Below, one piece after another: positions 25,342 through 29,538 of a stretch of DNA of 47,101 nucleotides. The position numbers were made by a program, and so were the translations under genes. Source of the DNA: a virus; IMG/VR virus record IMGVR_UViG_3300046028_004163, positions 1 to 47,101 of that record. The stretch is one strand, 5' to 3'. Below the pieces are notes generated by a model that was given only the letters and a program-made list of their open reading frames with translations, was not told the DNA's origin and made no database searches. How positions within the stretch are numbered: position 1 is the first letter of the stretch; every line of letters begins with the position of its first letter.

Positions 25342-25598
25342 GTTGGTTTGATGCGTTAAATGCTAATTCATGCACTAACTTTACCAAAGCTCGCAAAGGA
25401 AGGACTGAAGAGCTTTTATCTTTGCTTCCTGATGTGTTTACCATTAAGGACGTACTAAAAGTAAATGCAAAACATGGAATTTACGCTTCAGAGAACACGG
25501 CTAGACATGCGGAAAGTATGGTAAAACTTGGTCACGTTACTAAAGAATATAAAAAACTACCTAGTGGTGGTAGATATTGTGTTTATACTAAGATTTAG
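25338..25598 (+). CDS. Small early protein, possible winged helix
   Basis: 86 aa, ATGA overlap. The pattern EELLSLLPDVFTIKDVLKVN, ENTARHAESMVKLGHVTKEY, then a GGRYCVYTKI strand looks like a winged-helix DNA-binding domain with a wing hairpin. It is the last gene before the large non-coding region, so a regulator of that RNA or of late genes is a possible but untested role. Confidence 0.6.
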   Translation: MSWFDALNANSCTNFTKARKGRTEELLSLLPDVFTIKDVLKVNAKHGIYASENTARHAESMVKLGHVTKEYKKLPSGGRYCVYTKI

Positions 25599-25601
25599 TG
25601 C

Positions 25602-25630
25602 TTGCATAATTTTATAACATGTATTAATAT
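25602..25630 (+). promoter_or_regulatory. Promoter with palindromic operator ahead of the non-coding region
   Basis: TTGCAT (25602-25607), 17 bp, TAATAT (25625-25630); spacer begins AATTTTATA as in the other members of this promoter family. No ORF of note follows for about 890 bp, so its product is probably an RNA. Confidence 0.65.
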
Positions 25631-25637
25631 GTACCTA

Positions 25638-26490
25638 TTGAAGAAGACGACACAGCCCTATTTTTCTCCTGCGAATTGCAAAATCCACAATAATTTGCAT
25701 AAGTAGGCACAGCTAGGGGGGGTTGTGTCGAGTATTATTAGCTAGCTGTGACTCCTTATGTTGTGGTCGTGTGGTGGCGATACTTATTGTGGAATACCGG
25801 AGTTGCTGGCCTAAGCAGCAGTTAGTCATAAGCATGTTTAGGTGTGTTTATGACTAGCACATTTTTTGTGTTGGTCGCGCTTTCCTGAGTGCGGTTTTAT
25901 TTAGTTCGCCTCGCTTAACCTCCGCCAAGAAACCAAGCGGGGCGAACTACCTATTACTTAATTGATCCTGAGCCACGGCAGGTTAAGCCCGTTGACGGTA
26001 GCCATACCGAGAGTGAGCGAACGATTACCACAAGCGGACGCGCAAGGACGGGCAGTCGTGCAGTGGGAGGGTTGTTTAACCCTATACAGCTCGGAAAGAC
26101 GAGCACCAACAATTTGAATACTGACTGCGGGTTGAAATAATATCGCACAAATAGGGTTTGAATCTGAAGGTGACGGAAGCGGTTAGTCGTCTGTGTTGGT
26201 GTATATTATCTATGCAGTGCATAGATCAAAACACAGGTAGCTTATAGGTAAAGCGGGGGATGTCTAATCCCTGGTAAGCTGGTTCGAGTCCAGTCCTGTG
26301 TTGTTTTATTTAGAACAAATAAAACGGGACATATCCTGAGTATTTAGTAACTAGACAAAAAAAACACTGATCATGCTTAGTATTGTTGAGTGAAAGAGAA
26401 AGGCTGCAACCATTGGGTCAGCAATAGTCCGCTGGGCGATGTGCAAAAGAAGGGTTAATGGTGTAAGAGATGTTTCCCCTTTTATTTGTT
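25638..26490 (+). ncRNA. Candidate ornate large non-coding RNA
   Basis: No ORF with an SD or family motif is found on either strand between 25599 and 26522. The + strand folds into strong helices: 25648-25658 with 25720-25730, 25804-25808 with 25816-25820, 25821-25831 with 25848-25858, 25902-25916 with 25935-25949 (15 bp with one G-U), 25996-26000 with 26005-26009, 26068-26073 with 26078-26083, 26089-26093 with 26100-26104, nested 26104-26111 with 26194-26201 around 26120-26128 with 26179-26187, 26208-26215 with 26219-26226, a tRNA-shaped domain at 26231-26302, and 26303-26311 with 26317-26325. It ends near a C/T-rich tract. Boundaries are inferred. Confidence 0.6.
26231..26302 (+). tRNA. tRNA-like domain, Arg(UCU)-like but with G33
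   Basis: Seven-pair acceptor ACACAGG/CCTGTGT, D arm GCTTATAGGTAAAGC, anticodon stem GGGGA/TCCCT, loop TGTCTAA, T arm GCTGG-TTCGAGT-CCAGT, and discriminator T; no CCA is encoded. Loop position 33 is G instead of the near-universal U, and position 48 is A. Reading position 34-36 gives UCU. It may be a degenerate tRNA or a tRNA mimic built into the surrounding RNA. Confidence 0.6.
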
Positions 26491-26522
26491 TTTTATTTTT
26501 ATTAATTATTCCTAGGGAATAT

Positions 26523-26735
26523 ATGCAGGTTAAAGAAGAGTGGACTAAGCGCAAGTTTATCGAGATGAATCGGGTTTACCTTGGCTTGTCTCAGAAAAAA
26601 CTTGCAGAATTAGCTGGAACGAGTGCGCTATCGATTAGTCATCAAGAGCGTGGGCATCGTCCTCCTCGTGATGCTACGATTGATGCGTTAAGGAAGGCTG
26701 GTGATACGTTAGAACCATTGGCATTTTGGGAATAA
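26523..26735 (+). CDS. XRE-family helix-turn-helix regulator
   Basis: 70 aa from ATG 26523 with AGGGAA upstream; a longer frame back to 26439 has a hydrophobic start without support. The helix-turn-helix is LGLSQKKLAELAGTSALSI followed by SHQERGHRPPRDATIDALRK, a clean Xre/Cro domain (about 17-60). A candidate to bind the palindromic operator family, since it sits right after the large non-coding region and before the late genes. The target is not shown by the sequence. Confidence 0.85.
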   Translation: MQVKEEWTKRKFIEMNRVYLGLSQKKLAELAGTSALSISHQERGHRPPRDATIDALRKAGDTLEPLAFWE

Positions 26736-26859: not shown

Positions 26860-27306
26860 ATGTTAAGCGTTGCTTTTTTATTGTTTGCATTTTTCTTGAA
26901 AAATGATAGGAGAAAAGCAGCGCTTATTCTAGGTTTTGGTAATATTTTATTTTATGTATTATCTTTTTACGTAAAAAGCGACACTTTATATTATTTTGTT
27001 GCATCATTTTTAGATGCTTTTTTTGCGTTTATAGTGAGTGAATACCGTACAAAAACCGCCATTCATTTGGCCGTTGTGTCGCTATGCAGTTGTGTAATAA
27101 ATGGTGTAGGTTACATCTGGTACTTGGCTTATATGCCTGCAATGCCATACAATATCACCATTACTTTTATTTTGGTGATTCAAATGGCAATTTTGCTAAG
27201 GGATGGCATATATGATACAGGATGCGCTTTCTGCAGTTTATATGATAGTTTGGATATGCGTCATCGTGTACTGGGTTCTTTTAAAGGTGAAACGGTGCAA
27301 TCATGA
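26860..27306 (+). CDS. Polytopic membrane protein, unknown
   Basis: 148 aa with four or more predicted membrane helices (about 2-14, 24-38, 43-60, 66-88, 97-112) and a cytosolic C-terminal tail with Cys117, Cys120. AGGTGA precedes ATG. It overlaps the next holin-like gene as ATGA. Could be an antiholin, a membrane-stress or exclusion protein; no family recognised. Confidence 0.6.
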   Translation: MLSVAFLLFAFFLKNDRRKAALILGFGNILFYVLSFYVKSDTLYYFVASFLDAFFAFIVSEYRTKTAIHLAVVSLCSCVINGVGYIWYLAYMPAMPYNITITFILVIQMAILLRDGIYDTGCAFCSLYDSLDMRHRVLGSFKGETVQS

Positions 27307-27560
27307 ACGAACACGGAAACAACGCATCAGAAGTATTAGCACTAGCCGCAAATCAACCGAAGATTACCGGGACAATTAGCGCATTAGTTACATCAATTGG
27401 ATTGAGTAATATCAATGTAGTTTTAGGCATGGTAAGCACTTTTATAGGTTTGCTAATCGGTATTTATACGATCTATCGCATGTGGCAGTCTTCTAAGATT
27501 GCCGAAAAAGATATGAGAATCAAAGACATAGAGATTGCAAAGCTGGAAAAAGAACAATAG
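27303..27560 (+). CDS. Small one-TM holin-like protein
   Basis: 85 aa: an outer N-terminus, one membrane helix (VVLGMVSTFIGLLIGIYTIY, about 39-58) and a highly charged C-terminal helix (EKDMRIKDIEIAKLEKEQ). This layout is that of HP1-like/class III holins. It ends at a terminator before the packaging genes. Another holin candidate lies at 30488-30751, so which one is the pore cannot be decided by reading. Confidence 0.65.
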   Translation: MNEHGNNASEVLALAANQPKITGTISALVTSIGLSNINVVLGMVSTFIGLLIGIYTIYRMWQSSKIAEKDMRIKDIEIAKLEKEQ

Positions 27561-27596: not shown

Positions 27597-27986
27597 ATGT
27601 CTGAGCCAAGTAAGCGTCCTGTTGGTAGACCTCGTGCTATCGATTCTCCAGAAGCATTTGATTCTCTGGTTGATGGATATCTTGATCTGTGCCGACAAAA
27701 CAACGAGCCGATTCTACTTACTGGAATGATCCTATCTCTAGGACTGGTAAGCAAAGAAGCGTTTTACAATTACGAAACATATCCAGAATTTTCTGACTCT
27801 GTAAAACGTGCTCGCATGTTGGTAGAGATGGAGTATGAAAAAAGATTGAACACCGCCTCTGCTGTTGCCGCTCCAATCTTCGCCCTAAAGAACTTTGGAT
27901 GGAAGGACAAGCAAGAGGTTGCTTTGTCCACTACCGATAATTTTGCGGAGTACATGGCAGCCCGTGGACAACAAGAGACTGATTGA
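27597..27986 (+). CDS. Terminase small subunit
   Basis: 129 aa. Begins KRPVGRPRAIDSPEAF, with a helix-turn-helix region SLVDGYLDLCRQNNEPILLTG and conserved YNYETYPEFSDSVKRARML, APIFALKNFGWKDKQEV, a common phage small terminase pattern. It binds the packaging site and recruits the large subunit. It overlaps TerL. TAGGAAG is the SD. Confidence 0.9.
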   Translation: MSEPSKRPVGRPRAIDSPEAFDSLVDGYLDLCRQNNEPILLTGMILSLGLVSKEAFYNYETYPEFSDSVKRARMLVEMEYEKRLNTASAVAAPIFALKNFGWKDKQEVALSTTDNFAEYMAARGQQETD

Positions 27987-29538
27987 AGAAGCTGAGATCC
28001 TTCTGGAAGCCATTAGGCTTAACCCGAATGATCTTGCAGCATGGCGAGCCGGGATTACTAACAAGTGGTTCCGGCTCAATACTTTGTACAACATCAAAGA
28101 TAAGTCAGGTAAGGAGGTGCAGTTTAGGCCAAACTTTGCCCAACGAGCATTTTTTGCAGATAGACATAATAACGATATTGTGCTAAAGGCTAGACAACTT
28201 GGTTTTACTACCTTCGCCATGCTTGATGGGCTTGATGACTGCCTTTTTATCCCTAATTTCTCTTCTGGCTGTATTGCCCATTCCTTTGATTCTGCAAAAG
28301 ATATCTACCGAAGCAAAATAAAGTTTGCTTATCAAAAAATAAATCATGCATTTGTCAATTTTTTAACAGGCGGGCGTTTTGTGCTTCCTGTTCCGGTAAA
28401 TGATAAAAACACCGGGTTTGTATTTAGCAACGGGTCAAGTATTCGCGTAGGTACGGGCTATCGAGGCGATACGCTTCAATCACTGCACATATCAGAATTT
28501 GGCAAGATATGCAAGAAGTATCCAGAAAAGGCAAAGGAGATTGTAACTGGTGCGCTTGAGTCGGTAGGCATTGGCCATCGAATTACCATTGAAAGCACCG
28601 CAGAAGGTCGGGAAGGTTATTTCTACGAGTATGCAGAGGCAGCGCGGATATTGAAAGAGAAGGGTAAAAAGCCTAACTCTATGCAGTATCAATTCCATTT
28701 TTATTCTTGGTGGCAAGATCCTGCCTATACGATGGATGAAGAGCAGGATATGCCTGAACGTCTATTTGCTTACTTTGCAAAGCTTGAATCAAATCATGGC
28801 ATTGCATTAACTGCCGGACAAAAGAAGTGGTATGCCAGCAAGGAAGCAAAGCTTGGTAGTGAGATGACGCGAGAGTACCCAAGTACGCCAGAAGAAGCAT
28901 TCTTGCAGGCCATTGAAGGGGCTTATTACTCGCAGCAATTCAGTAAGATCTATAAAGATGGTCGTATCTGTGTATTGCCTGATAATGATCACCTTGCCGT
29001 GCATACATGCTGGGATATCGGTATCGGGGATAGTACGGCGATCTGGTTTTATCGCATGGTAGGCGATGTGCCACATCTTCTTGATTACTATGAAAACTCA
29101 GGCGAGTCTATGGGCCATTACATCAAGATTATTGAGGATAAGGGCATTGCTAATGGTTGGAAGTTTGGCAATCACACAGCCCCGCATGACATTAATAATC
29201 GTGAGTTTGGTAGCAAAGGTAAGACGCGCAAGGATCTAGCGGCGGAAGGCGTGGAATACATGGGTAAAACGTATGCAATCAAGTTTCAGGTAGCGCCTAA
29301 GCTGTCTATCATGGACGGTATCGAGGCGGCTAGGTTGTTGCTTGCTAAGTGTGTTTTCGATGAAGAGAAGACGACAGATGGGGTGAAGGTGCTAGAGCAT
29401 TACAGGAAGGAATGGAATGACAAGCTAGGATGCTGGCGAGATAATCCGCTACATGACTGGTCGTCACACGGTGCGGATGCGTTCCGTTATCTGGCAGTAG
29501 TAGAGAATAAGCGTAAGTCAGGTGGATTGTTCACCTAA
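27964..29538 (+). CDS. Terminase large subunit (ATPase and nuclease)
   Basis: 524 aa from GTG 27964, the likeliest start inside TerS (GCGGAG upstream); a TTG at 27895 is possible but lacks support. The ATPase has an atypical Walker A LKARQLGFTT and Walker B LHISEFGK with the catalytic Glu, and the nuclease has CWDIGIGDS, the APHDINNREF metal segment and DWSSHGADAFRYL at the end. It powers DNA packaging and makes the cuts. The terminal redundancy of the assembly suits headful (pac) packaging. Confidence 0.95.
   Translation: MDNKRLIEEAEILLEAIRLNPNDLAAWRAGITNKWFRLNTLYNIKDKSGKEVQFRPNFAQRAFFADRHNNDIVLKARQLGFTTFAMLDGLDDCLFIPNFSSGCIAHSFDSAKDIYRSKIKFAYQKINHAFVNFLTGGRFVLPVPVNDKNTGFVFSNGSSIRVGTGYRGDTLQSLHISEFGKICKKYPEKAKEIVTGALESVGIGHRITIESTAEGREGYFYEYAEAARILKEKGKKPNSMQYQFHFYSWWQDPAYTMDEEQDMPERLFAYFAKLESNHGIALTAGQKKWYASKEAKLGSEMTREYPSTPEEAFLQAIEGAYYSQQFSKIYKDGRICVLPDNDHLAVHTCWDIGIGDSTAIWFYRMVGDVPHLLDYYENSGESMGHYIKIIEDKGIANGWKFGNHTAPHDINNREFGSKGKTRKDLAAEGVEYMGKTYAIKFQVAPKLSIMDGIEAARLLLAKCVFDEEKTTDGVKVLEHYRKEWNDKLGCWRDNPLHDWSSHGADAFRYLAVVENKRKSGGLFT

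Follow-up and report, generated by a model that had tools for sequence, protein, structure and literature searches.

A conserved, modular structured RNA of no catalogued family upstream of the holin and terminase genes of a metagenomic phage

Results

Genomic setting and transcription signals

The window, by which we mean the whole 47,101-nucleotide viral stretch analysed here (IMG/VR record IMGVR_UViG_3300046028_004163), has no convincing gene between positions 25,599 and 26,522, an interval flanked by an 86-aa ORF ending at 25598 and an HTH ORF starting at 26523. PHROGs assignments place replication genes (helicase, primase, resolvase) upstream, and a holin-like gene and the terminase downstream. 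The longest ORF inside the interval (25954-26148, minus strand, 64 aa) is crossed by a 28-nt insertion/deletion in relatives. The claim of a first-pass annotation that about 920 bp here lack a credible gene holds; the interval is non-coding. Relatives are present in IMG/VR, two of them near-identical (L002 and L003) and three at about 86-91% (L006-L008), and in GenBank, where the corresponding RNA stretch of Iodobacter phage PhiPLPE (L004) carries no annotation. The features of the interval and its downstream context are these:

25602-25630, + strand: promoter, TTGCAT-17-TAATAT
25648-25730, + strand: first long arm of the 5' domain (CGACACAGCCC / GGGTTGTGTCG)
25821-25866, + strand: 17-bp hairpin followed by TTTTTT, possible early terminator
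25902-25949, + strand: 15-bp hairpin immediately 5' of the core
25967-26085, + strand: conserved core, with GCCCGTT/GACGGGC (25987-25993/26047-26053), a CGGTA/TACCG hairpin and the segment ACGATTACCACAAG
26086-26104, + strand: hairpin A, ACA-GCTCG-GAAAGA-CGAGC
26104-26201, + strand: P2 arm, CACCAACA / TGTTGGTG with inner ACTGACTGC / GCGGTTAGT; its insert holds a degenerate T-arm-like GGGTTTGAATC
26230-26303, + strand: tRNA-Arg(TCT)-like domain
26447-26490, + strand: weak 3' terminator candidate (hairpin and T-run) ahead of the HTH gene
26523-26735, + strand: HTH regulator ORF directly downstream of the RNA (PHROGs)
27303-27560: holin-like ORF (PHROGs)
27895-29538: terminase large subunit (PHROGs)

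The promoter previously proposed to read into the interval is weak by consensus (8/12 matches, below the cut-off of the promoter scan), yet it is kept, with its context and spacing, among the relatives: L006-L008 have the same hexamers and context (TTTAGTGCTTGC), and PhiPLPE has the counterpart TTTAGTGCTTGCGC-17-TATAGT (TTGCGC-17-TATAGT, L004 84-112). The 25821-25866 hairpin lies about 190 nt past the inferred start and has an equivalent in L008; we regard it as a possible terminator and no more, because its T-run can itself occupy the hairpin loop. No strong terminator was found at the 3' end of the RNA in the window, where the best candidate (26447-26490, z = -1.3) is not conserved in L008; it is therefore possible that a longer mRNA carries the RNA as its 5' leader. 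The PhiPLPE unit has no annotated genes and ends, before the next gene, in a strong terminator (GCCCGCTAACCATGCGGGC-TTTTTTT).

Fold and conserved core

Folding gives z = -5.0 for the + strand, which no shuffle equals, z = -3.7 for the minus strand and z between -3.1 and -6.0 for individual arms. All of the strong, partly nested + strand helices named in the first-pass annotation exist (25648-25658/25720-25730; 25902-25916/25935-25949; 26104-26111/26194-26201 around 26120-26128/26179-26187). The first long arm (z = -4.5) retains, by inspection, about 10/11 pairs in L008. The 15-bp hairpin before the core (z = -6.0) is replaced in L008 by a strong hairpin of unrelated sequence (12 bp, z = -4.0), and in PhiPLPE a less certain helix stands in its place (GACTGCG/CGCAGTC, in the centroid, absent from the MFE structure).

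The comparison with a related phage that had been suggested for detecting compensatory change was made by mapping the window's own predicted fold on L008, with the substitutions placed at random in 2,000 randomisations. It left 167 pairs unchanged, 11 changed on one side, 8 double-compensatory and 13 broken, the broken pairs being fewer than the 22.5 expected (P = 0.0005). The 8 double changes compare with 0.76 expected, a number reached in 0/2,000 randomisations, and did reveal compensation, although most probably come from the one replaced hairpin at 25902-25949 and so represent fewer independent events.

The core (about 145 nt) is 92% identical to PhiPLPE over 147 aligned positions, and no other part of the 931-base query matches that phage. 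It is intact in L008; in the window it lacks a 28-nt hairpin of the relatives, lost between CGAGAG repeats at about 26010. A genome scan found no core elsewhere, and new matches of a gapped core pattern were judged by eye to be probable coding coincidences. Since the independent relatives of the core are few (PhiPLPE, L006-L008 and the near-identical L002/L003), the covariation evidence for it is mostly indirect.

Hairpin A

The hairpin A pattern ACAGCNCGGAAAGACGNGC occurs in at least 117 viral contigs, compared with 3 for a loop-scrambled decoy. Its variable inner pair is mostly C-G, U-A, G-C or U-G, and where the outer 5' position is C, with either G or C allowed opposite it, 108/109 have G; this stem covariation supports an RNA hairpin. 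The element frequently lies 2-8 nt upstream of a tRNA or, by inspection, upstream of a ribosome-binding site. Bacterial genomes gave four matches, of which the one in Lewinella, after an ORF end, may be due to chance.

About 60 Vibrio phages carry hairpin A. Tandem GGAAAGAC copies lie near it (positions -235 to +554) in L053, L049 and L098, and in L027 the Rfam Proteo-phage-1 RNA (527-604) stands about 100 nt upstream of a copy (702-720). In L008 a second hairpin A-like element (GCACG-GAATGA-CGTGC), absent from the window, lies within a longer stem 3' of the tRNA-like domain. Three candidate identities were set aside: the T4 species 1/2 RNAs, in which no hairpin A was seen; a CsrA/RsmA sponge, as the GGA context mismatches the consensus; and HK022 put, as every HK022 copy of GGAAAGAC falls within coding sequence or past the lysis genes, with none at the early put loci.

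The P2 arm and the P3 kissing-loop domain

Hairpin A followed by P2 recurs in the same order in PhiPLPE, phiEt88, Vibrio phages and other phages, and the window has both (26086-26201). Judged by these motifs, the window RNA is part of a wider, uncurated group of phage RNAs with hairpin A and P2 and often a kissing-loop domain, P3. T-arm-like pieces in the P2 insert are modestly enriched elsewhere (9/111 loci vs 1-5 in control intervals). In Vibrio phage PS17B.1 (L013 1240-1310) a tRNA-like sequence of 29.0 bits lies within the stem GTCAGTTAA/TTAACTGAC, where sibling phages have other sequence.

P3 lies 3' of P2 in PhiPLPE, Erwinia phage phiEt88 and others, and consists of a closing stem and two hairpins, GCGCAGGCTGATGCGC and GCCGGAGATCAGCACCGGC, with mutually complementary loops. 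The pattern GTGAATGCGCAGGCTGATGCG is present in at least 118 viral contigs, lambdoid late leaders among them, and at several independent P3 loci a hairpin A-like element stands, by inspection, immediately before P2. In an alignment of 41 sequences its 22 pairs are 99.1% paired, 11 of them with changes on both sides, a result that no shuffle equalled; in PhiPLPE the kissing pair and the stem of hairpin 1 are altered together. PhiPLPE, which is among the sequences of the P3 model R1, and HK629 and CUS-3, which are outside its alignment, score 66-74 bits. The best match of this model in the window has E = 0.5 and lies at an unrelated place; P3 is thus missing from the window, where hairpin A and P2 are present. 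With P3 absent and the 28-nt core hairpin lost, the window RNA could be a reduced copy.

The placing of these elements in phiEt88 and in HK629, CUS-3 and lambda is comparable. The phiEt88 RNA lies beside or after a Q-like gene. Part of the phiEt88 query finds a match in 1,094/5,426 E. coli genomes, and the best 25 of the 1,094 lie at antiterminator Q genes. In mEp460 P3 lies beside a repressor gene. HK629 and CUS-3 have a clearer version of P2/P3, between Q and S. Lambda has, also between Q and S and directly after tR', P2-type complementarity and a GTTGTGCTG/CAGCACAAC closing stem by inspection; it does not score with the P3 model, which suggests that its form is degenerate or variant. In L004 (521-531, 644-651, 745-751) the middle strand TGTTGGTG has two possible partners, one upstream (CACCAACA, P2) and one downstream (CACCAAC, P3), and a like dual complementarity, possibly a switch, is seen in several other phages.

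The tRNA-like domain

The tRNA-shaped domain already recognised in the first-pass annotation was recovered at 26230-26303 both by the Rfam tRNA model (51.9 bits) and by ARAGORN, as tRNA-Arg(TCT). An 8-bp acceptor stem, G33 and the absence of CCA are common to the domains of the window and L008, which thus have neither the U33, nor the normal acceptor stem, nor the CCA or CCA-less standard form of a decoding tRNA. The anticodon is TCT in the window vs TAT in the relatives (an Ile(TAT)-like version), and the outermost acceptor pair differs between the window and L008 by a compensatory A-U to C-G change. Because the shape is kept and the marks of decoding (G33, no CCA, anticodon) are not, this part of the RNA is more likely a structural domain than a decoding tRNA.

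Known RNA families

Searched against Rfam 15 (4,227 families, E up to 10), the window gave only the tRNA and two chance-level matches, with no GOLLD, ROOL or OLE. The GOLLD model RF02032 (416 positions, gathering score 150 bits) likewise found nothing in L004 or L006-L008, and by eye the core and hairpin motifs of the window RNA were not recognised in the GOLLD consensus. A separate search with the ROOL model RF03087 (gathering score 99.1 bits) found nothing in the window, in PhiPLPE, in phiEt88 or in lambda; ROOL control genomes gave no match either, so this negative is not backed by a positive control. The proposal of a divergent GOLLD or ROOL member is thus not supported, and its alternative, a new class, fits the evidence. 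As for the broader picture of a large, ornate phage RNA, its own promoter, its place beside tRNA-like sequence and partial construction from it, and its conservation among related phages with compensatory changes stand, and membership of GOLLD, ROOL or OLE is not supported. No description of the window RNA was found in Rfam 15 or in open-licence PMC papers.

In Lewinella cohaerens (L141 1501-1990), a genome chosen only for its hairpin A, a full-length GOLLD match that falls below threshold (67 bits, E about 1e-16) lies at another place and partly overlaps a coding end.

Discussion

The window RNA is structured, conserved, modular and non-coding and is in no catalogued family, and we are highly confident that it is a real, conserved structured RNA outside the Rfam families. 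To our knowledge phages have few large structured RNAs, none of known function. We tentatively read this one as a free structural RNA of the lytic phase from the early/late junction, resembling GOLLD and ROOL somewhat in its working, a reading whose chances we put slightly below even. A non-coding transcription unit at the junction, with a promoter of its own, would yield a transcript of about 600-860 nt, predicted to fold, 5' to 3', into a variable 5' domain, the highly conserved core, hairpin A, P2 with its variable, degenerate tRNA-like insert, and the tRNA-like 3' domain. It would be made during lytic growth and released from the mRNA that follows, perhaps through RNase P cleavage at the tRNA-like domain, and would then persist as a structural RNA or as the scaffold of an RNP, multimer or scaffold behaviour being proposed by analogy with GOLLD/ROOL. 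The core, promoter, hairpin A and P2 held in common with PhiPLPE, whose gene-empty unit has a strong terminator, point to a free RNA, as do the compensatory changes in L008, the 5' hairpin kept in position and not in sequence, the recurrence and covariation of hairpin A, the covariation and kissing loop of P3, a tRNA-like domain that retains the shape and not the marks of decoding, and the place ahead of holin and terminase, comparable to those in phiEt88 and, between Q and S, in HK629, CUS-3 and lambda.

The main rival, to which we attach a considerable minority probability, is a cis-acting late-operon leader that controls transcription elongation, like the nut/put RNAs, or the stability of the lysis/packaging mRNA, with no role as a free RNA. 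It would accord with a position upstream of holin and terminase, with the similar position right after tR' and before S in lambdoid phages, and with the weak terminator and possible early terminator (25821-25866) of the window; in some phages, too, inspection places the start of P3 directly behind what looks like an early promoter, or downstream of a boxA-like CGCTCTTTAACA. Against such a leader, the PhiPLPE unit is closed ahead of the next gene by its strong terminator, hairpin A is not HK022 put, and the role would not require a tRNA-like domain. That the RNA is instead the relic of a once larger element, a phage tRNA gene whose unusually long leader is degenerating, we think improbable: the missing P3 and core hairpin and a tRNA with G33 and no CCA are what one would expect of it, but a core 92% identical to PhiPLPE and intact in L008, the compensatory changes and the retained promoter are not.

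A highly divergent GOLLD RNA escaping the Rfam model is already disfavoured and in our estimate very unlikely; it would explain the conserved part with a variable 5' domain, the insert, the kissing loops of the relatives and the phage location, all traits of GOLLD (PMC12286853), but not the empty model searches of window and relatives or the unrecognised consensus segments. Least credible, and close to negligible, is the view that there is no functional RNA at all, the helices being palindromes of a DNA element (a recombination or packaging site) or chance folding. Both strands do beat shuffles in folding, but loop conservation is strand-specific, the covariation includes G-U pairs, the tRNA-like parts are on one strand only, and there is a promoter.

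Beyond the window, the recurrence of hairpin A, a tRNA-bearing P2 arm and the kissing-loop P3 may mark a very widespread, previously undescribed superfamily of phage RNAs assembled from modules, of which the lambda late leader would hold a degenerate form and the window a core-bearing branch without P3; we consider this an even chance.

Comparison with known phage RNAs

GOLLD is found in phages and has a conserved part, a 5' domain and an insert that both vary, the insert being able to hold a tRNA, and kissing loops (PMC12286853), and the likeness in working that we suggest draws on these published features and not on a common model. Like GOLLD (RF02032), the window RNA is large, phage-borne and near tRNAs, with a conserved part, a variable 5' domain and an insert able to hold a tRNA, and its relatives have kissing loops; shared location near tRNAs, as in GOLLD and ROOL, is no proof of membership. 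The two differ in that no covariance-model match joins them and their conserved segments are distinct; GOLLD is a homo-multimeric RNA cage, and multimers would be expected of the window RNA if it is GOLLD-like. ROOL (RF03087) is similarly large, phage-borne, near tRNAs and without a known protein partner, but its model matches none of the window, PhiPLPE, phiEt88 and lambda. The HK022 put RNA, about 70 nt of adjacent stem-loops in phage operon leaders that acts on RNA polymerase in cis (PMC9378689), is likewise a phage leader RNA made of adjacent stem-loops; it differs in having no GAAAGA hairpin at its loci and another position relative to terminators.

The tR'-S stretch of lambda and the lambdoid phages has neither the core nor a canonical hairpin A that we could see, but shares with these RNAs a P2-type arm and P3 closing stem, placed where the late operon begins. 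The window RNA ties a metagenomic phage to motifs that hundreds of phages carry, with a related layout in an untranslated stretch of the lambda late operon among them, which brings its role within reach of deletion experiments in standard laboratory phages.
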